Source: Bacteroidales bacterium (lineage in GTDB: Bacteria; Bacteroidota; Bacteroidia; Bacteroidales; UBA932). From it: a stretch of 64,000 nt of DNA. A program made the translations under genes and the position numbers. Within the stretch, counting starts at the first letter, position 1; every line of letters begins with the position of its first letter. The stretch is from contig JAFQAT010000004.1 of the NCBI GenBank assembly GCA_017399865.1, positions 1-64,000 of the forward strand, in the 5' to 3' direction. The notes under the pieces were generated by a model, which did no database searches, was not told the origin of the DNA, and was given only the letters and a program-made list of their open reading frames with translations. Positions 12,234-51,244 of this stretch are shown piece by piece.

Positions 12234-12287
12234 AAAAAATGATTATTTTTTCAGAATCCTAAAATCCATCAAAATTAATCATTTTTT
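12234..12287 (-). promoter_or_regulatory. AT-rich inverted repeat upstream of the 748-residue gene
   Basis: AAAAAATGATTA (12234-12245) and TAATCATTTTTT (12276-12287) are perfect 12-bp inverted repeats in the 79-base gap between the two unknown membrane-protein genes. It could be an operator or an attenuator-like hairpin with T-run; the choice is open. Confidence 0.4.
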
Positions 12288-12308
12288 CTGAATGACAATC
12301 AATTGCCC

Positions 12309-13851: not shown

Positions 13852-13883
13852 ATATACCCAGGACTAGAAGAGTCCTGGAGTAT
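13852..13883 (-). terminator. Hairpin spanning the DASS-transporter stop codon
   Basis: CAGGACT pairs with AGTCCTG around a 5-base loop that contains the stop codon, and the stem extends outward through TATAC/GTATA. There is no T-run, so termination is uncertain; it may instead protect the 3' end. Confidence 0.4.
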
Positions 13884-16697: not shown

Positions 16698-16714
16698 AGT
16701 CTATTCTGTATTTG

Positions 16715-17767: not shown

Positions 17768-17793
17768 ATCGTCGTATTTTATTATAAGTTACA

Positions 17794-33141: not shown

Positions 33142-34179
33142 TCAGCAGCTTCGTCCTTCAATAAGAGTCGGACGGATCAGTATTTGTGACGAATCCTGGT
33201 GTTCTGTCATAGTACGTGAAGCGTCATCACCCGCATCATCATTTTCAATCAGCCTCACAAGGTTGTCAGTAGCAAGCTTGCCGATGGTGTTTAGCGGCTG
33301 TTCTATCCTCGTTATTGCGGGGTCTAAATAATCAAGAAAACGATTATTGTCAAATGAAATCAGAGCGATATCATCCGGAACTTTGAGTTTCAGCTCCTTC
33401 ACCGCCTTTATGACGCCCAACAGAATCGTCGTGCTGAACGCAAATATGGCATCAGGCTTATTATCGGAAGTGAGTGCAAGATATGCCTCTCTATAACCGT
33501 TATCTACAGAGAAGGAATCTCCGGCCGTCCTTTCCACGACTCCTGCTCCCTGATGGTCACGTGCCGCCTGGACAAATCCTCTCAACCTTTCTCTGTTAGG
33601 CATCGAGGTCTGCACTCCCTGAATCGCAAGAATGTTTCTATAGCCTCTATCGATCAGATACTCGGTAGCGATGTATCCACCGGAATAATTATCGGTACAG
33701 ACATAAGGCAAGGTCGTGTTTTCGAAATATCTGTCTATCAGAACCACAGGCACATTATGCGCGATCTCTTCTAGATATGAAGGAGAAGAACCGACAGGGA
33801 CTGCGATTATGCCGTCCACTTTTCTTGACACGAATGAATTGATGGCCTGCATCTCATTAGATTCGTTTTCCATTGTATCGGAAAGCAGAATATTATAGCC
33901 CTGGCTTTTGAACTGGTTGATGATCACTGCCGCCAAAGTGGAGAAGAACGGATTATCGATATTTGGAACCGTCAGACCTATGGTATTGGTCCTTCTTGTC
34001 CTCAGACTCTGAGCTATAAGGTCGGGAGTATAATTGCACGAGCGCGCCACACCGGTAATGTAATCGATTGTCTTCTGACTTATCCTGTAAGAGGGTCCTT
34101 TGCCGGACAAGACTCTGGAAACTGTGGAAATCGAAAAACCTGTGCGCTCCGATATGGAAAGCAATGTATCCTTCTTCAT
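33142..34179 (-). CDS. LacI-family transcriptional regulator
   Basis: 345 residues. N-terminal LacI HTH (LLSISERTGFSISTVSRVLSGKG, about 5-27) with hinge region, then a periplasmic-binding-protein-like effector domain (NTIGLTVPNIDNPFFSTLAAVI; VDGIIAVPVG; YVCTDNYSGGYIATEYLIDRG; DIALISFDNN). It is transcribed divergently from the ribokinase-SusCD operon, whose promoter has repeated TGYGCA palindromes with the central CG/CA step typical of LacI-family operators. The likely role is control of that operon with ribose or a ribose phosphate as ligand; this is inference from position and sites. Confidence 0.92.
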   Translation of the reverse strand: MKKDTLLSISERTGFSISTVSRVLSGKGPSYRISQKTIDYITGVARSCNYTPDLIAQSLRTRRTNTIGLTVPNIDNPFFSTLAAVIINQFKSQGYNILLSDTMENESNEMQAINSFVSRKVDGIIAVPVGSSPSYLEEIAHNVPVVLIDRYFENTTLPYVCTDNYSGGYIATEYLIDRGYRNILAIQGVQTSMPNRERLRGFVQAARDHQGAGVVERTAGDSFSVDNGYREAYLALTSDNKPDAIFAFSTTILLGVIKAVKELKLKVPDDIALISFDNNRFLDYLDPAITRIEQPLNTIGKLATDNLVRLIENDDAGDDASRTMTEHQDSSQILIRPTLIEGRSC

Positions 34180-34400
34180 GATTGTGCAGTCTTTTAAGAA
34201 ACAGTTTAAAGATTTCTATGAAAATGATAAGAAGCTCTTTAAATATTTCTCCGAAAAATATCAATTGTTGAAACCGCTTTGCAGAAGACGACTCAATATG
34301 TTCGACATGACAAGTGTAAACATATATAGTGTTCCCTGAATCAAACAGTTTCTAAAGATTATGCGAAAGTACTATTATTAGCAAAAAAAACGAAATAATT

Positions 34401-34430
34401 TTTGTTTTTAAATACAAAAAACTATTTTTG
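34401..34430 (+). promoter_or_regulatory. Promoter of the ribokinase-SusCD operon
   Basis: TTTG (34401-34404) and TATTTTTG (34423-34430) are spaced 18 bases apart, close to the Bacteroidota -33/-7 arrangement. The palindrome array starts 7 bases downstream, so repressor bound there would overlap the transcription start. Confidence 0.6.
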
Positions 34431-34437
34431 CACCATG

Positions 34438-34493
34438 TTGTGCACAATCGTTTGCGCAAACATGTGCACAAATTATGCGCAATCATTTGCGCA
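34438..34493 (+). promoter_or_regulatory. Array of five TGYGCA palindromic operators
   Basis: Sites: TTGTGCACAA (34438-34447), GTTTGCGCAAAC (34450-34461), TGTGCACA (34463-34470), TGCGCA (34476-34481), TGCGCA (34488-34493). Centres are 13, 11, 12 and 12 bases apart, near one helical turn. Very probably binding sites for the divergent LacI regulator. Confidence 0.7.
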
Positions 34494-34554
34494 GGAAACC
34501 ACAGTAACGACTGACGTATTAATAAAATAATTAATAACTAATAACTTGATCAAT

Positions 34555-35460
34555 ATGAGCGAAAAGAAGATCATGGTCATCGGAAGCAGCAACACCGATA
34601 TGACCGTAGTAGCAGACAGGCTCCCTATTCCAGGTGAGACCGTCCTTGGAGGAAAATTCGCAATGGGTCCGGGAGGCAAGGGTGCCAACCAGGCCGTAGC
34701 AGCTCAGAGACTTGGCGGAAACGTTTCATTCATCTGCAAGGTCGGCAACGACATTTTCGGCGAAAATGCCATCAGACACTACAACAACGAGGGCATGGAC
34801 ACTACCGGCATCATGCGCTCGGAGCTTCCTTCCGGTGTGGCACTCATATCTGTCGATACGAATGCAGAGAACTGCATCGTAGTGGCATCCGGTGCCAACG
34901 GAGACATCACAGAGGCTGACATCGAAGCTCACAGAAAGGAGATCGAAGAGTCTTCAATCCTTCTCCTCCAGCTTGAGATTCCGGTTGAAGCTGTCGTAAG
35001 GGCAGCCAAGATAGGACATGAGGCAGGTGTATATGTCGTTCTCAACCCGGCTCCTGCCTGCGACCTCCCTGAAGAGATCTATCAGTATATTTCTCTGATA
35101 ATTCCTAACCAGACCGAGATTGCCCTCATGACAGGCATCGAGGCAAAGAACGAAGAAGGCGCCGCAAAGGCAGTTGAGGCACTGCAGGAAAAAGGCGTCC
35201 AGGATGTCATCGTGACAATGGGATCCAAGGGATCCATGGTATATAACCAGGGTCAGGCGACATTCGTTCCTTCCAGAAAGGTCAATGCCGTAGACACGAC
35301 AGCAGCAGGCGACACTTATTGCGGAGGTCTCTGCGTGGCACTGTCCGAAGGCAAGGACATCATCGAGGCAGCGGAGTTCGCCACAGCAGCATCAGCACTC
35401 ACAGTGCAGAAACGTGGAGCTCAGGACTCTATTCCATACAGAAAGGATATAATTCTATAG
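34555..35460 (+). CDS. rbsK: Ribokinase
   Basis: PfkB-family kinase converting ribose to ribose 5-phosphate. Start at the ATG 34555 (MSEKKIMVIGSSNTDMTV); a TTG three codons earlier is less likely. Signature 1 is GGKGANQAVAAQRLGG near residues 38-53. Signature 2 with the catalytic Asp is DTTAAGDTYCGGLCVAL near 247-263. The Asn-rich KPNxTE-type motif appears as IIPNQTEIALMTG. About 301 residues, normal. It heads the operon, so ribose is the anticipated end product of the surface and periplasmic steps encoded downstream. Ends with a TAG stop. Confidence 0.93.
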   Translation: MSEKKIMVIGSSNTDMTVVADRLPIPGETVLGGKFAMGPGGKGANQAVAAQRLGGNVSFICKVGNDIFGENAIRHYNNEGMDTTGIMRSELPSGVALISVDTNAENCIVVASGANGDITEADIEAHRKEIEESSILLLQLEIPVEAVVRAAKIGHEAGVYVVLNPAPACDLPEEIYQYISLIIPNQTEIALMTGIEAKNEEGAAKAVEALQEKGVQDVIVTMGSKGSMVYNQGQATFVPSRKVNAVDTTAAGDTYCGGLCVALSEGKDIIEAAEFATAASALTVQKRGAQDSIPYRKDIIL

Positions 35461-35490
35461 TATATAATAACAACTAAAACAATCAACACC

Positions 35491-36501
35491 ATGTTTATCA
35501 TCAACAGCTACCTTCTTGCAGTAGTATTCTGCTTCATTACAATGATGTGCTGGGGTTCATGGGGCAACACCCAGAAACTCGCGGCTAAAAGCTGGAGATA
35601 TGAGCTCTTCTACTGGGACTATGTAATCGGTATGGTGCTCTTCTCACTCCTTATATGTTTCACCATGGGAAGCTTCGGAAGCGAAGGACGTCCTTTCGTT
35701 GAAGATATCGCGCAGGTGAGCCTCAAGAACGTAGGAAGCATCATCCTCGGAGGTATCATCTTCAACGCTTCAAACATTCTTCTCTCAGCATCGACTTCCA
35801 TTGCCGGCATGGCAGTGGCATTCCCTCTCGGAGTAGGTCTCTCACTCGTACTGGGAACCATCATCAACTATATCGGAGCGCCTAAGGGAGATCCGGTGAT
35901 CCTCTTCATCGGCGTGGCTCTCATCGTCGTGGCCATCATCTGCAACGGCATCGCGTCAGGCAAGGTGCAGCAGAGCAATGAGGAGCAGAGCAAGAACGGA
36001 AGAAAGGGTATCATCCTCGCCGTACTTGCCGGCATACTCATGGCATTCTTCTACAGATTCGTGGCAGCTGCAATGGACCTCGACAACTTTGCAGCTCCGG
36101 CAGCAGGAAAGGCTACTCCATACACGGCCATCTTCATTTTCTCACTTGGAGTACTTATAAGCAACTTCCTTTTCAACACTCTCGTGATGAAGCGTCCTTT
36201 CGTAGGCGAGCCTGTCTCTTATAAGGAATACTTCAAGGGCAACGGCAAGACTCACCTTGTAGGAATGCTCGGCGGAGCTATCTGGTGCCTCGGTACAGCA
36301 TTCAGCTACATTGCATCAGGCAAGGCCGGTGCCGCAATCTCCTATGCACTCGGACAGGGCGCTCCGATGATTGCAGCCATCTGGGGAGTATTCGTATGGA
36401 AAGAGTTCAAGGGTGCCAGGAAAGGCGTCTACGGTCTTCTCTGCGTGATGTTCCTCTTCTTCCTTGCAGGTCTCGGATGCATCATCATCTCAGGAAACTA
36501 A
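35491..36501 (+). CDS. GRP/RhaT-type sugar permease, probably for ribose
   Basis: Inner-membrane transporter with ten hydrophobic segments in 336 residues, from the drug/metabolite superfamily sugar branch. Segments such as MMCWGSWGNTQKLAAKSWRYELFYWDYVIG and the second-half AAISYALGQGAPMIAAIWGVFVWKEFKGA match the glucose/ribose porter (GRP) family. It sits 30 bases after ribokinase and before SusC, so ribose is the probable cargo. The substrate is inferred from context. Confidence 0.85.
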   Translation: MFIINSYLLAVVFCFITMMCWGSWGNTQKLAAKSWRYELFYWDYVIGMVLFSLLICFTMGSFGSEGRPFVEDIAQVSLKNVGSIILGGIIFNASNILLSASTSIAGMAVAFPLGVGLSLVLGTIINYIGAPKGDPVILFIGVALIVVAIICNGIASGKVQQSNEEQSKNGRKGIILAVLAGILMAFFYRFVAAAMDLDNFAAPAAGKATPYTAIFIFSLGVLISNFLFNTLVMKRPFVGEPVSYKEYFKGNGKTHLVGMLGGAIWCLGTAFSYIASGKAGAAISYALGQGAPMIAAIWGVFVWKEFKGARKGVYGLLCVMFLFFLAGLGCIIISGN

Positions 36502-36520
36502 ACGACAAAAGACGACTATA

Positions 36521-39439
36521 ATGAGAAAATTATTGATAATTCTCCTTGCATGCGTATGTTCAGCTGTTTCCGTACATGCGCAGACTAAGGCCGTGACCGG
36601 AAAGGTCAGCGGCAGCGATGGAGAAATCCTCACCGGAGCGACCCTCGTCACCGCCGGCGGCAATTATGCCCTGACCGACATCGACGGAAGCTTCTCCATC
36701 GAGTCAAAGAACGGTGAAAGCATCGTAGTGTCATATCTCGGCTATGACGACTACACATTTACAGCAGATGGTCAGCAGGGCCTTGATATCATCCTTCAGC
36801 TTTCGGCAAACACAGTCCTTGAAGAGGCTGTAGCCATCGGTTACGGAAAGACCACCAAAAAGGAGGTGACCGGATCTGTAGCAAGTCTCAAGGCAGAGGA
36901 CTTCGACAGAGGAACCTTCACTACTCCGGCAGCAATGCTTCAGGGTAAGGTGGCAGGTCTTACAGTAACCAATCCGGACGGAGGTGACCCTAATGCATCC
37001 TTCGAAATCATGCTTCGCGGTACCAACACTCTCGTGGCAGGTCAGGGTCCGCTCGTGATCATCGACGGCGTCGCAGGGGCCGACATGAGGACCATCAACT
37101 TCCAGGAAGTGGAATCCATAGACGTTCTCAAGGACGGATCGGCAGCTGCGATCTACGGTACCCGTGGTACGAACGGTGTCATCATCATCACCACCAAACG
37201 CGCAAAGAGCGGCAGCACATCTGTCGAATATGACGGTCAGGTGACAGTACAGACTGTCGCTGCACGTGCAGAGCCTCTGAACGCCAAGCAGTATGCTGAA
37301 GCCATAAAGAAGCACGCTCCTACACTGACAAGCAAACTTTACGGTCACGACACAGACTGGTTCGAGGCGATCACAAGAACTCCGATAAGCCACAAGCACT
37401 CGCTGGCAATCTCAGGAGGATCTGAAAGCTTCTCGCATCGTACTGTCCTGAACATCGAGCAGAACCAGGGCCTTCAGAAACTGAATGACTCTCAGAAATA
37501 CCTGATAAAGACCAATATACATCAGGATGCTCTTCAGGGATGGCTTACATTCGATTACAATCTCTCATACACCAAAAGGCAATATACACCTGCAAACTAT
37601 AGTGCGTTCAGACAGGCTTTCCTCAGAAACCCTACAGAGCCTGTCTATGACAAGTCCAACACAGAGGCCGGCGGATACTTCACCATCGACGCGATGGACT
37701 ACTACAACCCTGTGGCAATGCTTGAACAGAAGGACAACGACACAGATGTAGACAACTTCTCAGGATCCATCAGAGCGACTTTGAACATCCTGCCTGTGAA
37801 AGGACTCAAGTGGGACAACTTCATCAGCTACAACAACGAGCGCTACGAATCAAGAGAGTACCTCCGCAGATACTACCCTAGTTCTCTGGGACAGCAGGGA
37901 GTGGCATACATCTCGAACTCATATTCGAGCGACGTACAGTATGAAAGCACGCTTCAGTATTCGAACACCTTCGGAAAGCACTCTGTACAGGGAGTCCTCG
38001 GATATACCTACCAGGAGACAAATGAGCGCAGCGCATCCATGGAGAACTATGGTTTTGACTTCGATGATTTCAAGACGGACAACATAGGAGCAGGCGGAGC
38101 GCTTCAGGAAGGTCTTGCCGACATGAGTTCATTCCGGGGAATGAGCAGATATATCGCTTTCTTCGGCCGCGTGATGTACAATTATGACGAGAAATATCTC
38201 GCATCCGTATCGCTCAGACGCGACGGTTCAAGCAAATTCGGAGCGGACAACAAATGGGGATGGTTCCCGGCTGTCAGCCTCGGATGGCGCATCAACAAGG
38301 AAAGCTGGTTCGAGGACACCGACTGGCTCAGCGACCTCAAGCTCAGAGCTGGTTTCGGTGTGACCGGCAACCAGGACTTCTCAAGCTACAAGTCACTTCT
38401 GCTCATGGATCCGTTCAGCTTCTATTATTATGACGGCAAATGGGTGACTTCATATGCTCCGGCAAGCAATCCTAACCCGGACCTTGCCTGGGAAAGAAAG
38501 AATGAGTTCAACGTCGGTCTCGACTTCGCATTCTTTGACAACCGCTTCGGTGGAACAATCGACTATTACTACCGTCTCACCACCAACCTCCTTTACAACT
38601 ACACTGTGCCTGTGCCGCCATATGACTACGGAACCATGTTCACGAATGTAGGTTCCATCAGCAACACAGGTATAGAGCTCACATTGTATGGCACCCCGGT
38701 ACAGAAGGAGAACTTCGAGTGGAACACCACCCTTACTCTCGCCAACAACACCAACAAGCTCATCAAGTTCACAAACGACGAGTTCACTGCCGGTGAATAC
38801 AAGGTAGGCTACATGTCTACTCCGATCGGAGCATACTCGCAGAGACTGATAGAGGGTGAAAGCCTCGGAACATTCTATGCCCCTATCTGGAACGGTGTAA
38901 ACAAACAGGGAGAGGACAAGCTTCTAGACTCGAATCCTCTGACAGGAAGAGTAAAGGAAGAGGATTGGGAGAACGTGGGATCTGCATATCCTGACCTCAC
39001 ATTCGGATGGAGCAATAACTTCAGGATATGGAAGTTCGGAATCAGCGCCACTTTCAGAGGTCAGATCGGTGGAAAGATATTCAACACCTACAGAGCCCTG
39101 TATGAGAATGTTTCCAACCTCGGACAGTCCAACATCCTTTCAAGCTGGCTTGCCGACACTGATTTCAAGGGTAAGGAGATCAAGTATTCGACCAAGTTCA
39201 TCGAAGACGCATCATTCCTCAAGCTTGACAACATCTCGGTTTCATATGACCTGAAGCTGAAGAATGACATTCTCAGGAAGATCCGTCTCTACCTCACGGC
39301 TCAGAACATCTTCTGTCTGACAGGATATTCGGGAGTCGACCCTGAAGTGAGTCTTTCAGGAATTGCCCCTGGTATCGAGGGAACAAGCTATTACCCTCGC
39401 ACAAGATCATTCACGTTTGGTGCAACATTCACATTCTAA
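36521..39439 (+). CDS. SusC-like TonB-dependent outer-membrane transporter
   Basis: Barrel of a SusC/SusD uptake pair. The ATG at 36521 is preferred because it begins a signal peptide (MRKLLIILLACVCSAVSVHAQ); an upstream in-frame ATG lies inside the permease gene. A carboxypeptidase-D-like regulatory domain follows (VTGKVSGSDGEILTGATLV; GSFSIESKNGESIVVSYLGYDDY). The plug comes next (VAIGYGKTTKKEVTGSVASL; GPLVIIDGVAGADMRTINFQ; VLKDGSAAAIYGTRGTNGVI), then a barrel ending FTFGATFTF. 972 residues, complete, no frame damage. Expected to import a riboside or ribose-containing ligand with ATP-free TonB energy. Its SusD partner is interrupted. Confidence 0.94.
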   Translation: MRKLLIILLACVCSAVSVHAQTKAVTGKVSGSDGEILTGATLVTAGGNYALTDIDGSFSIESKNGESIVVSYLGYDDYTFTADGQQGLDIILQLSANTVLEEAVAIGYGKTTKKEVTGSVASLKAEDFDRGTFTTPAAMLQGKVAGLTVTNPDGGDPNASFEIMLRGTNTLVAGQGPLVIIDGVAGADMRTINFQEVESIDVLKDGSAAAIYGTRGTNGVIIITTKRAKSGSTSVEYDGQVTVQTVAARAEPLNAKQYAEAIKKHAPTLTSKLYGHDTDWFEAITRTPISHKHSLAISGGSESFSHRTVLNIEQNQGLQKLNDSQKYLIKTNIHQDALQGWLTFDYNLSYTKRQYTPANYSAFRQAFLRNPTEPVYDKSNTEAGGYFTIDAMDYYNPVAMLEQKDNDTDVDNFSGSIRATLNILPVKGLKWDNFISYNNERYESREYLRRYYPSSLGQQGVAYISNSYSSDVQYESTLQYSNTFGKHSVQGVLGYTYQETNERSASMENYGFDFDDFKTDNIGAGGALQEGLADMSSFRGMSRYIAFFGRVMYNYDEKYLASVSLRRDGSSKFGADNKWGWFPAVSLGWRINKESWFEDTDWLSDLKLRAGFGVTGNQDFSSYKSLLLMDPFSFYYYDGKWVTSYAPASNPNPDLAWERKNEFNVGLDFAFFDNRFGGTIDYYYRLTTNLLYNYTVPVPPYDYGTMFTNVGSISNTGIELTLYGTPVQKENFEWNTTLTLANNTNKLIKFTNDEFTAGEYKVGYMSTPIGAYSQRLIEGESLGTFYAPIWNGVNKQGEDKLLDSNPLTGRVKEEDWENVGSAYPDLTFGWSNNFRIWKFGISATFRGQIGGKIFNTYRALYENVSNLGQSNILSSWLADTDFKGKEIKYSTKFIEDASFLKLDNISVSYDLKLKNDILRKIRLYLTAQNIFCLTGYSGVDPEVSLSGIAPGIEGTSYYPRTRSFTFGATFTF

Positions 39440-39451
39440 AGATTAAGAGTT

Positions 39452-41002
39452 ATGAAAAACATATATAAATACATTCTGACTGCCTTAGCCTTTGGAATGG
39501 CAGTATCCTGCACCGATCTTGACGAAGAAGTATACTCATACATCTCAAAAGAAAACTTCTTCACATCAGAGGAGCAGGTGGCGATCTATGCCGGAAGAGC
39601 ATACACATCACTTCAGAACTGGGGCTCGGAGCAGAGCTGGCTGACCATGGACATGCTTCTTGGAGACGAGGCCTGCGCACCGATCAACCCTGAGGGAGCA
39701 TGGAATGACAACGGCCGCTACAAGGAGCTCCAGGAGCACCGCATCCCGACATCAAGCAAGCTCAACCTGATGACCTGGGACTTCATCTTTGATGGCATAG
39801 CAGCATGCAACGATGTCATCTACGAACTTGAAAACACAAGCTACGAGTTTGACGGACGTGCAAGAGTGCTTTCTGAAATAAAGGTACTCCGTGCATTCTT
39901 CTATTATCTTGCTGCAGACGGATACGACAACGTTCCGTTCTCCATAGACAAGATGGACACAAGCTATCCTAAGCCTAAGGACCGCACATATCTGTACGGA
40001 TTCATCGAGAAGGAAGTGACAGACAATATCGGCAACCTCGCCGACAGCCGCGAGACCAACTATTACGGCCGCATCACCAAGGGAGTCGCCAACACCCTGC
40101 TTGCAAAGCTCTATCTCAATGCGGATGTATGGGGTCATGGCACATAGTGGGCCAAGGCAGAGGCGGCAGCCAAGGCTGTCATCGAAAGCGGCACATATGA
40201 ACTTGCCAAGAACTACAAGGACAACTTCATAGTTCACAACGAGACTTCTCCTGAAGCGATTTTCGCCATCCCGTACAGCACTCAGTACATCGAGAGCAGC
40301 GACAATGCATTCTGCCTCTTCGCACTCACCCTTTCAGCAAGCGTTGCAAAGCAGAAATACAGCATCGGTGACGGATGGTACGGTTATGTCGGTCAGCCAG
40401 ACTTCATAGCTACATACGAAGAGGGAGACACACGTCTCAGCGACACATACCTCTTCGGTCAGATCTATGACAAGACCGGCAAGAAGATGACCATCACTCC
40501 GAAAGGAAGCAAGGAAGAAGTGGATTACGTCATAGATCCTATCTTCGACGAGAAGAAGTTCACCGAGGGCAGGACTGAACTCGAAGGAGCCTTCATCCAC
40601 AAGTGGGAGTACCAGAATGACGGTCTTCTCACGAGCTACAAGATCAGTATGGAAAACGACATATTCGTCTTCCGCTATGCTGATGTCATCCTTATGTACG
40701 CCGAAGCGCTTCTTCGTCAGGGAAAGGCTCTTGACAATACTGCTCTTAATGGTCTCAACGCACTTCGCAAGAGAGCAGGTCTTGCAGCAAAGGCCTCATT
40801 CGACCTCAATGAGCTTTATCTGGAAAGAGGCCACGAGATGGCTCTTGAAGGATGGAGAAGACAGGACATGATCCGCTTCGGCACATACCAGAACACATGG
40901 TGGGCAAAGGCAAAGAGGACAGAAGATCATGCATTGCTTCTCCCTATCCCTAGCGAGATCATCAACGCCAACCCTAATCTCAAACAGAATCCTGGATATT
41001 AA
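39452..41002 (+). pseudogene. SusD-like surface lipoprotein interrupted by an amber codon
   Basis: Ligand-capturing partner of the SusC transporter. The lipobox is MAVSC near residue 20, followed by TDLDEEVYSYISKENFFTSEEQ typical of SusD. The reading frame is intact on both sides of TAG at 40145-40147 (codon 232). Before it comes YLNADVWGHGT, after it WAKAEAAAKAVIESGTY, which is continuous SusD sequence to NPNLKQNPGY at the end. Without the amber it would encode 516 residues, a normal SusD. TAG ends other genes here, so recoding is unlikely. A recent nonsense mutation, a minority variant or a sequence error are possible. If real, the product is a 231-residue fragment. Confidence 0.85.
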
Positions 41003-41017
41003 TATACAACTATCATA

Positions 41018-42988: not shown

Positions 42989-43004
42989 TTTACAAGACAC
43001 ATAC

Positions 43005-44624
43005 ATGAAGAAGATTATATTTATCGCTGCAGCTCTGCTGGCCCTCGTATCATGCGGCCAGCAGCAGGCTGAGCAGCCTACAGAGGTAACAATGACCAAG
43101 GCAGAACTCCTCGACAAGATCAAGGGAGGCTGGGCAGGTCAGACAATCGGTGTAGTATATGGTGCACCGACCGAGTTCAAGTTCAGAGGAACGACAATCC
43201 AGGACTATCATACCATTCCTTGGGGTGACGGTTATGTAATGTACTGGTGGAAGAAGAAACCAGGTCTTTTCGATGACATCTACAACGACCTTACTTTCGT
43301 AGAGGCTTTCGAGGAGCTCGGTCTTGACTGCTCACAGGACTCACTCGCACTCCGCTTTGCTTATGCGGACTATCACCTTGCTCACGCAAACCAGGCCGGA
43401 CGCTACAATATCCGTCGCGGAATCATGCCTCCTGAATCAGGTCACTGGCTCAATAACCCACATGCTGACGACCTCGACTTCCAGATCGAAGCTGACTTCA
43501 TCGGTCTCATGGCTCCGGCCATGATTCCACAGGCTGTCGAGATTGCTGACAGAGTCGGTCACATCATGAACAGCGGTGACGGTTTCTACGGTGGTGTATT
43601 CGCAGCTAACCTTTATTCAGCTGCCTTCAAGTGCAACGATCCTGCAAAGGTCATCGACATGGCACTTGAGCCTATTCCAGCCGAGAGTACATTCTATCAG
43701 TGCATCGATGATGTACGTAAGTTCCACAAGCAGCATCCGGAAGACTGGAAGGAGTGCTGGTGGGAGATCAACAAGAAGTGGAACAAGGACGTCGGATGTC
43801 CTAAGGGAGTATTCCTCAACTTCAACATCGACGCAAAGATCAATGCTGCATTCATCGCTATCGGTCTCCTTTATGGTGAGGGTGACTTCACAAAGTCTGT
43901 AGACATCTCTACAAGATGCGGTCAGGACTCTGACTGTAACCCTGCTACCGTAGGTGGTGTGCTTGGAGTTATGGTAGGTTATGAGAACATCCCTGAGTTC
44001 TGGCTCAATCCTCTTAAGGAGATCTGGAATCTCGACTTCGAGGGCACTACAGTTTCTCTTGACAAGGGTGCCAACTACTCATACAATCAGGCACTTCAGC
44101 TCATCGAGAAGAACGGAGGATGCATCGAGGGTGACAATGTAGTCATCCCACAGAAGGAGGTTTCAGTTCTTCCTCTCGAGCAGAACTTCATAAACACATA
44201 CCCTACTTACAGAGAGAGATGGGATTGCTGGATGGACAAGGAGTTCGAATTCGATTTCGAGGGTAACGGTTACATCATCTGGGGTAACCTCGTGAAGACC
44301 AAGGAGGTATCACCAAGATACGCTCATATGGTGGCTATCCGTCATATAGGTTCAGAGCCATTCGCTCTTGCAGAGCTTGATGACCCATATGTAGCAGAGA
44401 TCGAAGTATGGATCGACGGCAAGCTTGATGAGGTTTCAATCATGCCTATGAAGAACACCGCACGCCGCCTTGAGCCTACATGGAAATATCAGATGCCTGA
44501 GGGCAAGCACACTGTGAAGCTCGTATGGAGAAATCCTCATAAGGACTACCTTCTCCGCATAAACGACATTCAGTACTACTCTGAGAACGAGAACACCAAC
44601 CAGTTCTACTACTACGCAAGATAA
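43005..44624 (+). CDS. ADP-ribosylglycohydrolase-family lipoprotein, second copy
   Basis: Lipobox at Cys17 (LVSC). Family core begins LLDKIKGGWAGQTIGVVYGAPTEFKF. Metal-site acids are in FDDIYNDLTFVE (90-96), HADDLDFQIEADF, and RCGQDSDCNPATVGG (Asp308 and Asp310). A C-terminal beta region (about 390-539) contains the pattern YVAEIEVWIDGKLDE followed by HTVKLVWRNPHKDYLLRINDIQYY. 539 residues. It is much closer to the third copy (45233-46762) than to the first, indicating a within-locus duplication with the AT-rich lipoprotein gene between. Likely secreted catabolic hydrolase of the ribose locus. Confidence 0.88.
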   Translation: MKKIIFIAAALLALVSCGQQQAEQPTEVTMTKAELLDKIKGGWAGQTIGVVYGAPTEFKFRGTTIQDYHTIPWGDGYVMYWWKKKPGLFDDIYNDLTFVEAFEELGLDCSQDSLALRFAYADYHLAHANQAGRYNIRRGIMPPESGHWLNNPHADDLDFQIEADFIGLMAPAMIPQAVEIADRVGHIMNSGDGFYGGVFAANLYSAAFKCNDPAKVIDMALEPIPAESTFYQCIDDVRKFHKQHPEDWKECWWEINKKWNKDVGCPKGVFLNFNIDAKINAAFIAIGLLYGEGDFTKSVDISTRCGQDSDCNPATVGGVLGVMVGYENIPEFWLNPLKEIWNLDFEGTTVSLDKGANYSYNQALQLIEKNGGCIEGDNVVIPQKEVSVLPLEQNFINTYPTYRERWDCWMDKEFEFDFEGNGYIIWGNLVKTKEVSPRYAHMVAIRHIGSEPFALAELDDPYVAEIEVWIDGKLDEVSIMPMKNTARRLEPTWKYQMPEGKHTVKLVWRNPHKDYLLRINDIQYYSENENTNQFYYYAR

Positions 44625-44626
44625 TC

Positions 44627-45226
44627 ATGAAAGTTTTTTTAACAGCCGCCTTGTGCATATCCTGTTGTTTCTTCTTGGGATGCAATGGGAATGATGCTGA
44701 AAGTCAGAGTCCATCTAATCAAATAAGCATAGATGAAATCCAAGGCTATTGGCAAAGTAACGGTACATCCATTCCGGTAAATGTCGACAGGAATTTCATT
44801 ATTACTGAAAGAGGACTTCCTGCACCAACAGGACTACGCAACGACCTTCAATATTATTACATTATCACAGGTAATACCGTTGATTGTTATGTAAAGTGTA
44901 TTGTCGACGCATACTTGCCGGGAGCAACCGATAATCCCGTGTATGTTATACAGTTGGATAATGAAAGGATCATATCTGTTGAAGACGGACATAAGGTCAA
45001 AACGGATATCTTCGAAAACATCTCAGCCTATGATGTCGCCATTGATAACAGCACAGAATCATCAATAGCCCTTGTAAGGCAGCAGAATAGAGATGGATAT
45101 TCACATATCGCTTTCACATTGAATGCAGTAACGGCAACAGAGTGGTCTGAAACAATAAATGAGGTCATATCTCCAGGTGACCCTGACTACGAAGAAGCTT
45201 ATGATGCGGTTTTCAATAACTTTTAA
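44627..45226 (+). CDS. Small AT-rich lipoprotein of unknown function
   Basis: 199 residues; lipobox FFLGC at Cys19. No family recognised. The mature part is probably beta-rich, with segments such as QGYWQSNGTSIPVNV, LQYYYIITGNTVDCYVKCIVDAYL and YSHIAFTLNAVTATEW. Its base composition is visibly more AT-rich and its codon choice differs from all neighbours (many ATA, AAT, GAT and TAT codons). It is wedged 2 bases after one ADP-ribosylglycohydrolase gene and 6 bases before the next. Recent acquisition or an immunity/adaptor-type lipoprotein are both conceivable; nothing favours one. Confidence 0.8.
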   Translation: MKVFLTAALCISCCFFLGCNGNDAESQSPSNQISIDEIQGYWQSNGTSIPVNVDRNFIITERGLPAPTGLRNDLQYYYIITGNTVDCYVKCIVDAYLPGATDNPVYVIQLDNERIISVEDGHKVKTDIFENISAYDVAIDNSTESSIALVRQQNRDGYSHIAFTLNAVTATEWSETINEVISPGDPDYEEAYDAVFNNF

Positions 45227-45232
45227 GACACA

Positions 45233-46762
45233 ATGAAGAAATTTATAGTACTCATCGCCGCTGCTGCGGCAATATTGTCATCGTGCTGTAACAATAACTG
45301 CTCTACCATCAAGTATGGTGAGCAGGTTGTTATCGACGAGGCGACAATGATGGACAAGATCAAGGGAGGATGGTTCGGACAGACCATCGGATGTACCTAC
45401 GGAGGACCTACCGAGTTCAAGTACAAGGGAGGTATCATCTGGGACGGTATTCCGATTCCTTGGTATGACGACTACATCTACGACACTTTCATCCTCGACC
45501 CGGGGCTTTATGACGACGTCTACATGGACCTCACATTCGTTGATGTGATGATCGAGCACGGCATCGACGCGCATGTGGATCTTTTCGCTGAAAAGTTTGC
45601 AAACGATGACTACAAGCTCTGGCACGCGAACCAGGCTGCACGATACAATATCCTCAAGGGCATGAAGGCTCCAGAAACAGGCCACTGGATGAATAACCCG
45701 CACGCTGACGACATCGACTTCCAGATCGAGGCTGACTTCATCGGTATGATGACTCCAGGTCTTCCTGACGTGTCAAACGAGATATGCGACAGGATCGGTC
45801 ATATCATGAACTACGGTGACGGCTGGTACGGCGGCGTATTCATCAGTGCGATGTACTCGATGGCATATGTATGCAATGACATACCTACAATCGTAACTGA
45901 AGCACTCAGGACTATTCCGGAAGGAACAAAGTTCCATAATGCGATCTCAAGCGTGATCAAGTACTGGAAGATGTATCCTGATGACTGGAAGAGATGCTGG
46001 TTCGAGGTAGAGCAGAGACATGGCGTGGACATCGGATGTCCTGAGGGTGTATGGAACGGTTTCAACATCGACGCTGTAATCAACTCCGCATACGTAGTGA
46101 TCGGCCTCCTCTACGGAGAAGGTGACTTCTTCAAGACCATGGACATCTCTACAAGATGCGGTCACGACTCAGACTGCAACCCGGCATCTGCCTGCGGTAT
46201 CCTCGGCGTAATGAACGGTTACGAGTGGATTCCTGAGGAATGGAAGAGGGGCATCGGCAAGATCGAGGACATGGCATTCCCATACACAGACCTCAGCCTC
46301 AACTCAATCTGCGAGATGAACCTCAAGCTTATGAAGGAGATCGTGGAGAAGAACGGAGGATCTTTCGAGAACGGTGTGTTCACATTCACAGCAAACGAGC
46401 CTCACGCAGTGCGTTACGAGCAGTCTTTCGAAGGTCTTAAGCCTGTCGACAAGGTTGTGCTCAAGAAGCAGTTCACAGACGAGCTCACCCTCAAATTCAA
46501 GGGCAACTCGATCGTGGTTGAAGGCGCAGTGATCAAGACCGGACACAGCGATGACGCATATGTAGCAGAAGTATCGGCATACATCGACGGCGAGAAGGTA
46601 GAGGACTTCCTCATGCCTTTCGATTACATCACCCGCAAGTATGAGATCTTCTCAAAGTACTGTCTCGAAAGCGGAGAACATACACTCAGACTCGTCCTCA
46701 ACAATCCGCACAGAGACTTTGCTCTCAATGCAACCAATATGGTGATTTACGACAATGAGTAA
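45233..46762 (+). CDS. ADP-ribosylglycohydrolase-family lipoprotein, third copy
   Basis: Lipobox LSSC at Cys18, with an unusual run of cysteines (CCNNNC) after it. Core motifs parallel the second copy: MMDKIKGGWFGQTIGCTYGGPTEFKYKGG, LYDDVYMDLTFVDV (metal acids), NNPHADDIDFQIEADFIG, and STRCGHDSDCNPASACGILG near 300-320. The C-terminal beta region ends HTLRLVLNNPHRDFALNATNMVIY, also shared with copy two. 509 residues. Its last 8 bases overlap the start of the first esterase gene, so the products are probably made together. Confidence 0.88.
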   Translation: MKKFIVLIAAAAAILSSCCNNNCSTIKYGEQVVIDEATMMDKIKGGWFGQTIGCTYGGPTEFKYKGGIIWDGIPIPWYDDYIYDTFILDPGLYDDVYMDLTFVDVMIEHGIDAHVDLFAEKFANDDYKLWHANQAARYNILKGMKAPETGHWMNNPHADDIDFQIEADFIGMMTPGLPDVSNEICDRIGHIMNYGDGWYGGVFISAMYSMAYVCNDIPTIVTEALRTIPEGTKFHNAISSVIKYWKMYPDDWKRCWFEVEQRHGVDIGCPEGVWNGFNIDAVINSAYVVIGLLYGEGDFFKTMDISTRCGHDSDCNPASACGILGVMNGYEWIPEEWKRGIGKIEDMAFPYTDLSLNSICEMNLKLMKEIVEKNGGSFENGVFTFTANEPHAVRYEQSFEGLKPVDKVVLKKQFTDELTLKFKGNSIVVEGAVIKTGHSDDAYVAEVSAYIDGEKVEDFLMPFDYITRKYEIFSKYCLESGEHTLRLVLNNPHRDFALNATNMVIYDNE

Positions 46763-48293
46763 ATGCTTGAACATATTGTCAGCCATATGTCTTCTCACAG
46801 TCATAATCGGCTGTGAGAAGACTCCTGCTGGCAAAGAGCCGCAGGAGCAGGAGTTCGAAAGATATGCGCAGAACATACTTTACGAGAACAACTCCAAAGT
46901 ATACAAGTCCACCTATTCGATCCTGCTGCCGGAAGGCTACGACAAGGAACCGGAAAAGAGATACCCTGTAGTGTATATGCTCCACGGATTCGGAGAAAGC
47001 GGAAAGGACTGGAGCAGCTGGGTCAGTGCGATCAAAAGCATGGAAGGAGCCGGACTTCAGCAGATGATCTATGTCTTCCCGAACTGCAATGATTCATACT
47101 ACTGCAACTACTACGACGGGAAGGCGATGTATATGGACATGATCGTCAAGGAACTGGTTCCACTCATCGACAACACATACAGGACAATCGCGGACCGCGG
47201 ACACAGAGCGGTCATGGGCTATTCCATGGGAGGATTCGGAGCCATGGTGCTACCTCTCAAGAACCCGGACGTGTTCAGCATCTCCGTTCCTCTCAGCATG
47301 TCATTCAGGACCGACGAGCAATATATGACAGAGTCACAGTCAGGCTGGGACAGCCAGTGGGGAAAGATCTTCGGAGGAAGAGGCAAGACCGGAGAGGACC
47401 GTCTTACCGATTATTATAAGGAGCATTGCCCGTTCTATCAGTTCATACCGGAAAACAAGACAGAACTGTCAAGAGTGAAGTGGTTCTTCCATTGCGGAGA
47501 TGATGAAGAACAGCTCCTGATCGCCAATGACAATCTTCACGTACAGCTCAGGGACAATGGCTTCGAGCATGAATTCCGTATCAGCGACGGCGGGCACAGC
47601 GGAGACTATTGGAGAACAGCCGCAAGAGAGACGCTCCCGTGGATCCAGCATGTGATGAACGGCGGTGGCGAATGGACAAGGATCATGAAGGATGTGACCG
47701 TCACCTCAGCTGCACTGAACGAAGACGGAAGCTTTTCATCTGACAAGTTCAAGGAGAACCCTCAGGAAGGAGGTCTCGCCATTTATCTGGCCCACAACGG
47801 ATTCAGCAGGGATCTCATGGAAAAGGCTGTCGGCATGCTTTCACAGACAGGACAGATCTTCCCTTACATGGTGCTCCCTTGCGATCTCGATGTCAAGCCG
47901 CTGACAGAATGGATGACAGAATACAACGGAAAATACGGCATCGGAGGGTCTGCGGAGAAATCACACATCATCGCTTTCGGCAATGCAGGGCGCGAGGCAT
48001 ACGCACTTGCTGACCGATTCAATGCATATTACTATGTAGATGCAGACCTGACTGACAGCGAAGAATCTATCACAGCCGACGTCACGAAGAGGTATTATAT
48101 CGACCAGACTGATGACGGTGCAAATTACAGAGACATGAATGCTCTGTACAGAGCCTGCAAGAATGTAGTCCTTGAAGACGGAAAGACAGATGAAGCTGAC
48201 TTTGAATACAGGATGCGCAACGGCAATTCTGACAAGGAGAAGGAAATACTTCTGGCAATAAAGTCGGTTGCAGACAATCTGAGGTACAAGTAA
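46755..48293 (+). CDS. Esterase-D-like lipoprotein with a second, inactive hydrolase domain
   Basis: Lipobox VIIGC at Cys20. The first domain (about 50-300) is an esterase-D/feruloyl-esterase alpha/beta hydrolase: YPVVYMLHGFG oxyanion region, nucleophile Ser157 in GYSMGG, acid in HCGDDEEQ (Asp249/250), and His281 in DGGHSGDYW. The second domain (about 338-512) repeats the fold order. GLAIYLAHNGF matches the first strand, FGNAGREAYAL the nucleophile elbow with Asn410 for Ser, and IDQTDDGANYRDMNALYRACK the acid segment, but no His is found at the end. It therefore looks like a catalytically dead duplicate that might bind ligand. Substrate probably an acylated sugar or riboside; not proven. Confidence 0.82.
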   Translation: MSKCLNILSAICLLTVIIGCEKTPAGKEPQEQEFERYAQNILYENNSKVYKSTYSILLPEGYDKEPEKRYPVVYMLHGFGESGKDWSSWVSAIKSMEGAGLQQMIYVFPNCNDSYYCNYYDGKAMYMDMIVKELVPLIDNTYRTIADRGHRAVMGYSMGGFGAMVLPLKNPDVFSISVPLSMSFRTDEQYMTESQSGWDSQWGKIFGGRGKTGEDRLTDYYKEHCPFYQFIPENKTELSRVKWFFHCGDDEEQLLIANDNLHVQLRDNGFEHEFRISDGGHSGDYWRTAARETLPWIQHVMNGGGEWTRIMKDVTVTSAALNEDGSFSSDKFKENPQEGGLAIYLAHNGFSRDLMEKAVGMLSQTGQIFPYMVLPCDLDVKPLTEWMTEYNGKYGIGGSAEKSHIIAFGNAGREAYALADRFNAYYYVDADLTDSEESITADVTKRYYIDQTDDGANYRDMNALYRACKNVVLEDGKTDEADFEYRMRNGNSDKEKEILLAIKSVADNLRYK

Positions 48294-48296
48294 GAC

Positions 48297-49721
48297 ATGA
48301 AAAGAATTTTATATATCATAGCCATTTGTGCAATCGCCATCACTGCCGATGCGCAGGAGAGATTCGTCTCCGGGCAGCCATTCCACAGCGAGATGCTGGG
48401 AATGGACCTCCCGTACGCCATAGTTCTGCCTGCGGATTATGAGGCAGAGACGGATACAAGATACCCTGTCATCTACCTTACGCATGGAATAGGATGCACA
48501 CCGGACGACTGGAATGACAGATACATCCAGTTCGAGAACACTCTGAACGGACTTGAAGAGGCTGGTCTCGGAGACTTCATCTATGTCTTCCCTACCGGTC
48601 TGAATTCTTACTACAGCAACACATATGACGGAAAGTTCCCATACATGGACATGTTCATCCAGGAATTCATTCCGTTCATCGACGGCAAGTATAGAACCAT
48701 AGCCGACAGAGACCACAGGGCAACTATAGGTTTCTCGATGGGAGGTTTCGGAGCCATGGTGCTTCCGTTGAAACACCCCGAGACATTCTGCTTCTCGGCT
48801 CCTTTGAGCATGTCGTTCAGGACAGACGAGATGTATCTGGAAGAGCCTCTCAAATGGTGGAACGAACAGTGGGGATCCATTTTCGGCGGAGTTGATCAGG
48901 AAGGCGAAGGAAGGCTTACAGACTACTACAAGGCACATTGTCCATACTATCAGTTCACCAGGGAGAACCTTGAGGAACTCTCGAAGGTGAAGTGGTTCAT
49001 TCACTGCGGAGACGACGAGGAACGCCTTCTCATTGCCAATGACGACCTTCATATCCAGATGCGAGACAACGGTTACACACATGAATATCGCGTCAAGGAC
49101 GGCGGGCATACCGGACGTTACTGGAGAACATGCCTTCAGGACGTGCTTCCTTACATCGAGGCTGTAATGACCGGATCAGAGACACCGGCGGAACCACATG
49201 CCGAGATCCCGGAAAAGGTCGGAAAGAATCAGGACGGCGGAACGGTCATCTTCCTTGCACACGACGGTCTTAAGAGAAGACTTGTCAAGGACATCATACG
49301 ACTTGTCAAGAAAGACTCAGGGGACAAGCCCCTCGCCGTCGTGAAATGCAACACCAGGTGGACTTCATTGGAAAAGAAGATCAGGAGATGGTCACGCAGA
49401 CATTCTTTCACAGATGCACAGGTCATAGCCCTCGGAAAGGCAGGCCGCGAAGCATATGCACTTCAGGAGAAATTCTCACGTCTGTATTTCGACAATGCTG
49501 ACCTGCTCGATGACGAGACTCAGCTTCAGGCAGATCCTGAGAAATTCTGGTATATGTCACAGACCGACGACGGTCCATACTACAAGGACATGGGAGGTCT
49601 CTACAAGGCCTGCAAGAAGAGCGGGGCTGAATTCCAGTACAGAGTACGAAACGGTGTTCCTGACGACAGGTCCAACATACTTACAGGTATTGAAACAATT
49701 AAACCTTACATTATTTATTAA
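48297..49721 (+). CDS. Secreted esterase with a second, inactive hydrolase domain (paralogue)
   Basis: Paralogue of the preceding gene, 474 residues, with a cleavable signal peptide (ITADAQ) instead of a lipobox. Active domain about 35-295: YPVIYLTHGIG, Ser147 in GFSMGG, HCGDDEERLL (Asp239/240), His271 in DGGHTGRYW. The second domain (about 312-474) contains GGTVIFLAHDGL, ALGKAGREAYAL (Lys381 in the nucleophile position) and MSQTDDGPYYKDMGGLYKACK. This tail aligns with the first domain's acid-to-end segment but again lacks the His. Three bases separate it from the previous gene. One esterase would be membrane-tethered and one soluble in the periplasm. Confidence 0.82.
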   Translation: MKRILYIIAICAIAITADAQERFVSGQPFHSEMLGMDLPYAIVLPADYEAETDTRYPVIYLTHGIGCTPDDWNDRYIQFENTLNGLEEAGLGDFIYVFPTGLNSYYSNTYDGKFPYMDMFIQEFIPFIDGKYRTIADRDHRATIGFSMGGFGAMVLPLKHPETFCFSAPLSMSFRTDEMYLEEPLKWWNEQWGSIFGGVDQEGEGRLTDYYKAHCPYYQFTRENLEELSKVKWFIHCGDDEERLLIANDDLHIQMRDNGYTHEYRVKDGGHTGRYWRTCLQDVLPYIEAVMTGSETPAEPHAEIPEKVGKNQDGGTVIFLAHDGLKRRLVKDIIRLVKKDSGDKPLAVVKCNTRWTSLEKKIRRWSRRHSFTDAQVIALGKAGREAYALQEKFSRLYFDNADLLDDETQLQADPEKFWYMSQTDDGPYYKDMGGLYKACKKSGAEFQYRVRNGVPDDRSNILTGIETIKPYIIY

Positions 49722-49744
49722 CCCATTTATTAATCAAAATCATT

Positions 49745-50536
49745 ATGAAAAAGTTTTTCACTCTGGCAGCAATCGCATTTGCTGCAATCGCAATGGTTTC
49801 TTGCGAGAAAGACCCTAACAAGACAGGAGATGAAGAGAACAATGATGCAGTAAGAAAGGTTCTCCTCGCGCTTCCTAGCGAAATTGACGAAGACGGCAAA
49901 CTCGTATCAGGCCGTTCATTCCGTTACAATGCTGACGGTTCACTTGCCGGCGTTGACGAAGTATGGACAAACGATGACGGTACTCTCGGAACATGGAATC
50001 TCAATGTGACAAGAAGCGGCAACAAGCTTACTCTTACTACTGACGAAGGTGATGTCGAGTACGAGTGGGAAGTCAATGCACAGGGCTACGTGGTAAAGAA
50101 CGGTGACTACTCTTACGAGTACGATGCTGAAGGTCACCTCACAAAGGTCATCGAGGACTGGGGCGAGGGCCCACAGGTGGTTTCTATCTGCACTTGGGAG
50201 AACGGCAACCTTACTTCATGGACAAGAGAAGGCGAGGCTGAGGACGGCAGCGGTGCTGCACGCGTAAAGAGACAGACTTACAAGACTGACCTTAACGTAG
50301 GTGGTATCTTCACTTGCTTCACTGAGAAGAGCTCACTCAAGAAGTGGATGTTCGAGGCTGGTTTCTTCGGAAAGCCATCAAAGAACCTCGTTGCTACTGA
50401 CAAGTGGGATGACAGAGAGAATGGTGCTGACTTCGAGTACAGATGTGACGACGACGGTTATGTAATCGCCGAGGTCAAGTATTGGAAGGGAGAGGTTGAC
50501 GATGAGACTTACTACATCTGGCAGCCTGCCAAGTAA
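49745..50536 (+). CDS. Lipoprotein with YD-like repeats (DUF4595-like)
   Basis: 263 residues; lipobox AMVSC at Cys20. The mature part carries repeated YD/RHS-like hairpin motifs (SFRYNADGSLAGVDEVW; DYSYEYDAEGHLTKVIEDW; FEYRCDDDGYVIAEVKYW) that resemble the Bacteroidota DUF4595 group of beta-rich secreted lipoproteins. It is the last gene of the ribose-locus strand, 23 bases after the second esterase and followed by a strong terminator. A surface ligand-binding role in the locus is possible; nothing direct shows it. Confidence 0.75.
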   Translation: MKKFFTLAAIAFAAIAMVSCEKDPNKTGDEENNDAVRKVLLALPSEIDEDGKLVSGRSFRYNADGSLAGVDEVWTNDDGTLGTWNLNVTRSGNKLTLTTDEGDVEYEWEVNAQGYVVKNGDYSYEYDAEGHLTKVIEDWGEGPQVVSICTWENGNLTSWTREGEAEDGSGAARVKRQTYKTDLNVGGIFTCFTEKSSLKKWMFEAGFFGKPSKNLVATDKWDDRENGADFEYRCDDDGYVIAEVKYWKGEVDDETYYIWQPAK

Positions 50537-50559
50537 TCTCTCTGAGATCTGAACAAAAC

Positions 50560-50605
50560 ACAAGCGGTGGCTGGTTATGAGAATCCGGCCACCGCTATTA
50601 TTTTA
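50560..50605. terminator. Bidirectional terminator at the end of the ribose locus
   Basis: AGCGGTGGCTGG (50563-50574) pairs with CCGGCCACCGCT (50585-50596), 12-bp stem with one G-T type pair, loop of 10. It has ATTATTTTAT downstream on the plus strand and TTGTGTTTTG on the minus. Lies between two convergent genes. Confidence 0.85.
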
Positions 50606-50621: not shown

Positions 50622-51242
50622 TTAAAGCTTCACGTTGAATGTGAGCCACAAGACGTGGTCATCGTATGCTCTCTGGTACTGGTCCTGGTAGACGTATTGG
50701 AGAAGAACAGAGAGGTTCTTAGTACAAGCGATGCTCACGCCTGCATAATACCTCGTCCTTGCAAATTCAGACATATAATACGGTTCCACCGCCACAAGCG
50801 GGCTGAAAGGGGTCTTGGGGATCTTATATCTTACCTGGGCCTTGGTCCTGAAGAGGAACCCCCAGCTGTCGTCCGGCTGTTTCCATGTTATCTGGAGCCT
50901 CTGTCTCAAAGACAGGTCGAAGCCATGGACCTTATGGGAAAAGACCACCTGCGGCTGCATCCTGATATTGAATCCCGAAGACATCCAGGCGAAATCGGCC
51001 TGAGCGGCAGCCTTCATCCATGGAAGTATTTCATATTCTACAATAGGTCTGATATAATACTGCTGCGTATTGGACATATTCTGGTTGGCTCTATGCTCTG
51101 CCCTGACTCCAAGAGTCCATTTTTCGCTTACATCAGCCTTCATGGATATGGCATTCCAGAAGCACAGGTCGTCTTCCTGTGCAAACAGTGCTGACGGGAG
51201 GGCCGCCAGCACCATTATGATGATTGTCTTGAAATGTTTCAT
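50622..51242 (-). CDS. DUF2490 outer-membrane protein
   Basis: Predicted beta-barrel of about 206 residues. Start chosen at 51242 (MKHFKTIIIMVLAALPSALFAQ, signal peptide), which lies 2 bases after the purH stop; a start 17 codons earlier would be inside purH. Mature sequence has DUF2490-type segments: DDLCFWNAISMKADVSEKWTLGVRAEHR, QYYIRPIVEYEILPWMKAAAQADFA and RTRYYAGVSIACTKNLSVLLQYVYQDQ, and a final strand ending in Leu (HVLWLTFNVKL). Function unknown for the family; it appears co-transcribed with purH only by adjacency. Confidence 0.82.
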   Translation of the reverse strand: MKHFKTIIIMVLAALPSALFAQEDDLCFWNAISMKADVSEKWTLGVRAEHRANQNMSNTQQYYIRPIVEYEILPWMKAAAQADFAWMSSGFNIRMQPQVVFSHKVHGFDLSLRQRLQITWKQPDDSWGFLFRTKAQVRYKIPKTPFSPLVAVEPYYMSEFARTRYYAGVSIACTKNLSVLLQYVYQDQYQRAYDDHVLWLTFNVKL

Positions 51243-51244
51243 TT

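Follow-up and report, generated by a model that had tools for sequence, protein, structure and literature searches.

Gene content of the locus

The window analyzed here, a 64,000-nucleotide stretch (positions 1 to 64,000 of contig JAFQAT010000004.1, assembly GCA_017399865.1) from a Bacteroidales metagenome-assembled genome (MAG), carries a candidate ribose-utilization locus. A LacI-family gene on the minus strand diverges from eleven co-directed genes at 34546-50536, with intergenic gaps of at most 30 bp. Three of these genes encode enzymes of family PF03747 (A, B, and C), two encode esterases (E1 and E2), and two encode small lipoproteins (sL1 and sL2). The 2.19-Mb assembly is 77.8% complete and contains three PF03747 matches, all at this locus. 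An earlier note on this DNA had listed these genes with their places and strands, and open reading frame coordinates and family profiles bear out every one of them. The features, with two operator-like sites added, are as follows.

33142-34179, minus strand: LacI-family regulator, divergent (PF00356, PF13377; best NCBIfam likeness is to an RbsR model, 199.4 bits, below the cut-off of 382)
34441-34458, no strand: operator-like palindrome TGCRCAA-N4-TTGYGCA, copy 1 (pattern scan of the genome)
34476-34493, no strand: operator-like palindrome TGCRCAA-N4-TTGYGCA, copy 2 (pattern scan of the genome)
34546-35460, plus strand: ribokinase (TIGR02152 equivalog, 357.6 bits versus a cut-off of 299.65)
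35491-36501, plus strand: GRP/RhaT-like sugar permease (PF07168, PF06800)
36518-39439, plus strand: SusC-like TonB-dependent transporter (TIGR04056, 707 bits)
39452-41002, plus strand: SusD-like lipoprotein with an in-frame TAG at 40145-40147 (matches SusD of relatives on both sides of the stop)
41018-42988, plus strand: PF03747 enzyme A, lipoprotein, with He_PIG and a further C-terminal region (PF03747, 90.8 bits; cut-off, 26.2)
43005-44624, plus strand: PF03747 enzyme B, lipoprotein (PF03747, 139.4 bits; cut-off, 26.2)
44627-45226, plus strand: small lipoprotein sL1, accessory (no Pfam match)
45233-46762, plus strand: PF03747 enzyme C, lipoprotein (PF03747, 127.5 bits; cut-off, 26.2)
46755-48293, plus strand: esterase E1, PF00756 plus a degenerate second esterase-like domain (PF00756 over cut-off)
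48297-49721, plus strand: esterase E2, E1 paralogue (47% identity), without a lipobox (PF00756 over cut-off)
49745-50536, plus strand: small lipoprotein sL2, DUF4595 (PF15283, 39.1 bits versus a cut-off of 34.2)

A lipobox cysteine is present in enzymes A, B, and C, E1, SusD, sL1, and sL2, and none was seen in E2 (N termini judged by eye). The earlier note had seen no nucleoside hydrolase, and PF01156 indeed gave zero matches in the cluster and in the whole assembly. A DUF2490 protein is encoded at 50622-51293, between the locus and purH, and adjoins the locus in its two nearest relatives as well, L054 (a goat rectum MAG) and L055 (a water buffalo colon MAG).

The in-frame TAG, codon 232 of SusD, had been missed by the earlier note. 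SusD is open in L054 and L055 (515 and 517 amino acids [aa]), and the window's SusD matches its relatives over nearly its full length on both sides of the TAG. The stop may be a strain mutation or an assembly error. It could also mean that the locus is decaying in this strain, but we regard decay as very improbable: the remaining genes are open, the frame beyond the TAG is intact and homologous, a consensus error is possible in a MAG, and decay here would have no bearing on module function in relatives.

Distribution and gene order in relatives

One hundred loci were compared, 20 from the same family and 80 from named genomes; the latter are the best-scoring of 580 confirmed stretches, and single-enzyme loci are under-sampled among them. 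The same DNA occurs twice in L034/L075, L035/L065, and L040/L096, and close kin occur in L060/L061, L113/L114, and L116/L123; all were kept in the counts. The earlier note had proposed a search of rus loci for this gene order, and the set of A, B, and C does recur, as separate genes, in 71 of the 100 loci, with an esterase in 68 of the 71. At least two esterase-labeled genes are found in 28 of the 71 loci, or 24 if only full-length genes of >400 aa are counted. The recurring order is ribokinase-(permease)-SusC-SusD-A-B-C-esterase-(esterase)-(permease)-sL2. The earlier identification of a ribose locus of the rus type is supported. The term "expanded" is not supported for this genome, since the gene set is a conserved module in relatives, and the esterases are not an addition peculiar to this genome. 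In three loci beyond the 71 (L034 and L075, the same genome, and L072), A and B form a natural fusion, with a single reading frame of 1173 or 1193 aa.

Carriers of all three enzymes belong to the Bacteroidales, Flavobacteriaceae (Gelidibacter, Lutibacter), Chitinophagaceae (Ferruginibacter), and Cyclobacteriaceae, and the ribokinase equivalog also occurs in Hallella (NCBIfam). A search with protein B matched 29 of 149 genomes of the window's family, its own included, three of them only at E values of 3e-4 to 5e-4. Of 395 genomes sampled from the phylum, 5 have an A-like gene, and in just one of these, the window's own, does the gene sit in such a locus; this search scored at most three candidates per genome and may undercount. 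In the order of Lutibacter, 1 of 296 genomes has an A-like gene, namely, the center genome itself, and in the order of a lake MAG, 12 of 393 genomes do, including four that were known before. Overall, the module is rare and its distribution is patchy. Outside it, the A-like gene of G310 lies behind a SusC/SusD pair, with no ribokinase, B, C, or esterase labeled there, and that of G1016 is an orphan. In L139, L141, and L142, from another class, a lone A-like enzyme lies beside genes resembling glycogen branching and debranching enzymes (by eye).

Linkage to citrate genes

Twenty-seven loci (L099, L100, L102-L124, L126, and L128) make up what we call the second group. Their record titles mostly name a lake, spring, cave, soil, or sea, and several are silent on source; the other group is mostly gut titled and includes digester, oral, and unclear records. 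A locus was counted as visible if it had at least 1.2 kb beyond the 3' end; among esterase-bearing loci, 66 qualified (22 second-group loci and 44 others). In 20 of the 22 visible second-group loci, the cluster contains or adjoins genes for citrate/dicarboxylate transporters or citrate lyase, and none of the 19 single-enzyme loci has a citrate-type gene.

The second-group neighbors were identified as DASS transporters (PF00939, TIGR00785), CitMHS transporters (PF03600, TIGR00784), CitD-CitE fusions (CitDE), and CitF (PF04223, TIGR01584). CitMHS of L104 scores 544 bits on TIGR00784 (cut-off, 259.7), and CitF of L113 scores 512.5 on TIGR01584 (cut-off, 501.45). The arrangement of these genes varies. 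CitDE-CitF lies upstream of the ribokinase in L117, L120, and L128, and CitDE-CitF-CitMHS lies downstream of the cluster in L113, L114, L116, and L126; L109 has DASS-CitDE-CitF downstream, followed by a ribokinase, and L124 has CitMHS with a convergent citrate lyase. Elsewhere in the second group, DASS or CitMHS occurs alone. The same 3' place is occupied by two transporter families. Citrate lyase was traced onto the same contig in L109, L113, L114, L116, L117, L124, L126, and L128 and was read directly in L120.

Citrate lyase was also sought in whole genomes, covering those of 43 of the 80 named loci, with L120 left out. A strong CitF match was found in 22 of 26 second-group genomes, in none of 12 other esterase-bearing genomes, and in none of 5 single-enzyme genomes. 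The phylum background is 37 of 395 genomes (E < 1e-20; Fisher P ~3e-17 versus 22 of 26, uncorrected for kinship). Eight further genomes with an A-like gene, which had not been used to form the idea, provided a second comparison. Seven of them hold the complete set, and all seven complete loci have DASS (six, one of them convergent) or CitMHS (one), with CitDE-CitF also present in one; in the eighth, the A-like gene is an orphan. Between these loci and the earlier ones, sequence sharing is limited to a few 60-base words at most (G1181 with L106).

The window's own genome has DASS or CitMHS-family genes elsewhere and none beside the locus. One of its DASS-family anion symporters (TIGR00785 over cut-off) is encoded at 13864-15474 of the window, ~18 kb from the locus and unlinked to it.

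The PF03747 enzymes

In a tree of 74 PF03747 enzymes, enzyme A is a single clade (support, 100/100) far from B and C, and enzyme B is a single clade (98/100). The single enzymes found in compact ribose loci, to which best match gives the C label, are not separated from enzyme C (two changes are needed for C, and 34% of bootstrap trees need one). The three glycohydrolases of the earlier note are confirmed as three PF03747 proteins, but they are not one gene "tripled," as A and B are old, separate lineages; a recent triplication was rejected on the basis of the tree.

The GNGxxMR loop, which we take to bind ADP-ribose, is present in 0 of 245 locus enzymes and in 3 of 3 DraG-type controls (L030-L032), one of which was included in the alignment; 244 of the 245 have an NPH motif at that place. 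The Asp pairs of both metal motifs and a Glu in the first motif, presumably metal-binding residues, look kept in the alignment (by eye). Profile alignments to solved relatives show the Asp pairs kept and the Thr of the two metal motifs replaced in B and C. A profile search of A against solved structures gave no relevant match, and in the NCBIfam equivalog search only B, of the three enzymes, scored at an E value of 0.001 (18.8 bits versus a cut-off of 490).

These data bear on substrates suggested in the earlier note, which had named, beside O-acylated ribosides, ADP-ribose, ADP-ribosyl conjugates, or NAD fragments as the ribose source, with the 5'-nucleotidase at position 1028 as a possible helper. 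The PF03747 family name and the kept metal-motif residues are consistent with it, as are two histidine phosphatases and two Exo_endo_phos proteins among 94 unlabeled proteins encoded within two genes of the 71 clusters. The absence of the GNGxxMR loop from the locus enzymes, together with the absence of a nucleoside hydrolase from the genome, argues that ADP-ribose or NAD is unlikely. Furthermore, no phosphatase or Nudix family occurs in more than 2 of the 94 neighbors (among the 25 of 86 families shown), the 5'-nucleotidase has no homologue in the 100 loci at an E value of 1e-5, and an ADP-ribose source leaves the citrate genes unexplained. Ribose freed from ADP-ribose stays 5-phosphorylated and is unusable by ribokinase. 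We therefore set this substrate and its helper aside as the likeliest reading and give them a low probability. An open frame at 18665-20071 of L054, overlapping the end of sL2, is histidine phosphatase-like by its RHG motif; PF00328 was found in 2 of the 94 neighbors, members not specified.

Ribose could instead come from nucleosides or RNA, as in compact rus loci. A PF01156 nucleoside hydrolase does lie beside LacI in L036 of the same family (532-1524), with homologues labeled in L037, L039, and L040, and the single-enzyme Parabacteroides loci L130 and L133 have a nucleoside hydrolase. However, the window's genome lacks any PF01156 match, and it is not evident what the esterases, A, and B would do in nucleoside cleavage, which makes this source improbable here.

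Among the neighbor families shown, the commonest are housekeeping families (tRNA synthetase, uridine kinase-like, and PLP enzyme, with 5 or 6 members each), and GH127, with 4 members, is next, ahead of the two phosphatase-type families. In L036, a GH127 gene (beta-L-arabinofuranosidase family) lies directly 3' of sL2 (16242-18116), which fits a furanoside substrate in some relatives.

Esterases and small lipoproteins

The earlier note had called the esterases double domain, and the second half of each does align with the first as a degenerate repeat (hhalign probability, 99.6). The first domain contains GxSMGG and a conserved Asp and His, which we take to form its catalytic triad with the motif Ser, while the second half lacks the GxSMGG serine motif. 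Across 18 alignment rows, one of which is an empty placeholder, columns S147, D239, and H271 of E2 are at least 90% conserved. The pairs of the second group resolve into two old clades in a tree of 42 esterases. E1 and E2 are not such an ancestral pair; both fall in the first-esterase clade, by a duplication that L054 and L055 have as well (support, 95/81), and none of the 42 that belong to the second clade comes from the window's lineage. In Hallella (L098, 13162-15230), the first esterase is seemingly cut to a 112-aa frame ahead of a 580-aa frame.

The suggestion of O-acylated ribosides in the earlier note is supported. The acyl groups could be ordinary ones (acetyl, feruloyl, and the like), with the citrate genes serving general citrate use and lying near the locus for unrelated reasons. 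In favor of this, the closest PDB sequence matches of E2 are ferulic acid esterases (7xrt, E = 1.7e-36), and the window's own group has no linked citrate genes. It accounts less well for the several citrate-gene arrangements, for two transporter families at one place and lyase on either side, and for the citrate linkage of all seven complete loci in the further genomes. We consider ordinary acyl groups possible but somewhat doubtful.

Homologues of sL2 are labeled in 61 of the 71 loci with all three enzymes. Among the 100 loci, sL1 is labeled only in the nearest relative, L054, where a C10 (streptopain-like) peptidase with a Spi prodomain lies beside the sL1 homologue between B and C (11636-13439). 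This suggests that the peptidase and sL1 are an inserted pair that was partly lost in the window, where only sL1 was found.

Regulation

The 2.19-Mb genome has only two exact matches to TGCRCAA-N4-TTGYGCA, and both lie in the interval separating the LacI and ribokinase genes. When up to one mismatch is allowed, 25 of 37 LacI-bearing relatives have a site, where stretches of equal length from the same loci would predict 0.8. Control of the locus in this lineage would rest with a LacI repressor bound to these two predicted operators ahead of the ribokinase. A ~510-aa protein of unassigned family occurs in 14 of the 37 loci that have all three enzymes and no LacI label and in 8 of 19 single-enzyme loci; in others, the upstream side is truncated or bears other genes. 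Promoter and terminator scans say little (27 found versus 19.9 ± 4.4 in shuffles and 11 versus 12.5 ± 3.6, respectively).

Proposed function

Inferring enzyme activities, ester, acid, and substrate from gene content and linkage, we give about even chances to the proposal that the locus is a rus-type polysaccharide-utilization locus (PUL) directed at an O-acylated ribofuranoside, with citrate or a close tricarboxylate as the simplest choice for the acid in ester linkage. The exported esterases would remove the acid from the riboside, the three specialized PF03747 ribosyl hydrolases (A, B, and C) would cut different ribosyl bonds, and SusC/SusD would import fragments. The permease would then carry free ribose over the inner membrane, and ribokinase, which requires free ribose, would make ribose-5-phosphate. 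Given the export signals of the esterases and ribosyl hydrolases, both deacylation and the release of ribose are expected to take place outside the cytoplasm. The citrate genes of the second group make citrate the most economical identity of the acid: these relatives would also keep the freed acid by means of a DASS or CitMHS importer and citrate lyase, and the window's own group would keep the ribose branch only.

Several observations weigh against this proposal. The 44 other visible loci, which include those of the window's kin, have no citrate-type gene labeled, and a CitF search of the window's assembly gave no match. The second esterase type occurs without citrate genes in L086, L097, and Hallella (L098), L103 and L111 carry the locus without citrate genes, and there is no strong CitF in L103, L111, L115, or L118. 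SusD is interrupted in the window's genome. CitF of L120 falls slightly below its cut-off (494.7 versus 501.45), as do CitE scores, by more (276 and 278 versus a curated cut-off of 443.4). Members of the second group cluster taxonomically, and the group was delimited in part once its gene order had been seen, so that its counts are not independent; the CitF comparison is confounded with lineage, and the further genomes come from one order. The transporter may be transcribed separately, since it starts ~130 to 290 bp past sL2 in L100 and L122 and lies on the other strand in G923. Anions other than citrate can also be taken up by DASS carriers. Because the CitMHS model of Pfam matches both DASS and CitMHS, the two are not independent inventions. 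Lastly, we know of no natural glycan that contains both ribose and citrate.

More tentatively, we suggest as a possibility that an undescribed natural family of glycans or glycosides with citrate-esterified ribofuranose exists, that A, B, and C are a new group of ribofuranosidases rather than ADP-ribose hydrolases, and that the glycan is sufficiently common across lakes, sediments, soils, and guts to have selected a patchy, phylum-wide degradation module. In the literature searched (titles and the starts of abstracts, with incomplete coverage), neither a ribose-citrate glycan nor this gene set was met, nor was the citrate-gene linkage of second-group loci, which is new here. In the passages covered, PMC11976392 mentions citric acid only as a reagent or analyte, and PMC10434189 places a PF03747-type gene in a haem locus of Prevotella intermedia.

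If correct, the proposal names a nutrient by its parts, ribose and citrate, and would suggest a divergence of rus-type loci toward acylated substrates. The label "ADP-ribosylglycohydrolase" would then probably be misleading for the enzymes of such loci. By record title, the carriers include the isolates Gelidibacter salicanalis, Ferruginibacter sp. HRS2-29, and Hallella multisaccharivorax DSM 17128.

Comparison with known systems

The first domain of the esterases resembles CE1-type feruloyl/acetyl esterases (PF00756) in GxSMGG and the conserved Asp and His; unlike these, the locus esterases add a degenerate second domain without a nucleophile. The PF03747 enzymes resemble DraG/ARH ADP-ribosylhydrolases in family and in the Asp pairs of both metal motifs. 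They differ from them in having NPH in place of GNGxxMR, in the Thr replaced in B and C, and in export signals and extra C-terminal regions.

The compact ribose loci of the same family (L041-L047) have the same functions in the order SusC-SusD-ribokinase-glycohydrolase-permease, and their enzyme is ~50% identical to B and C. In contrast to the window, they have one PF03747 enzyme and no esterase, and citrate genes are not labeled there.

PMC12596196 describes BT2803-2809 as the Rus PUL, with RusR and RusT. Judged by gene functions rather than by direct sequence comparison with BT2803-2809, the window's locus is most likely a variant of such loci: it has a ribokinase in the operon, a SusC/SusD pair, a GRP-like permease, and a PF03747 enzyme akin to that of compact loci. 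The nucleoside hydrolase, absent here, was treated as variable, as L041-L047 likewise lack a labeled one.

Ribose systems reportedly diversified across the Bacteroidetes (Glowacki and colleagues, in 2020), and this gene set may therefore already be drawn in that work. In Bacteroides thetaiotaomicron, a dedicated regulator governs the rus locus, whose genes include those for a ribokinase, a permease, SusC/SusD, and a PF03747 enzyme, all of which have counterparts in the window. The window differs in having two further PF03747 lineages and a DUF4595 lipoprotein, along with the one or two esterases of this type of locus, in lacking a nucleoside hydrolase, and in having LacI in place of the ~510-aa protein of other loci, while the second-group versions differ further from rus in their citrate genes.

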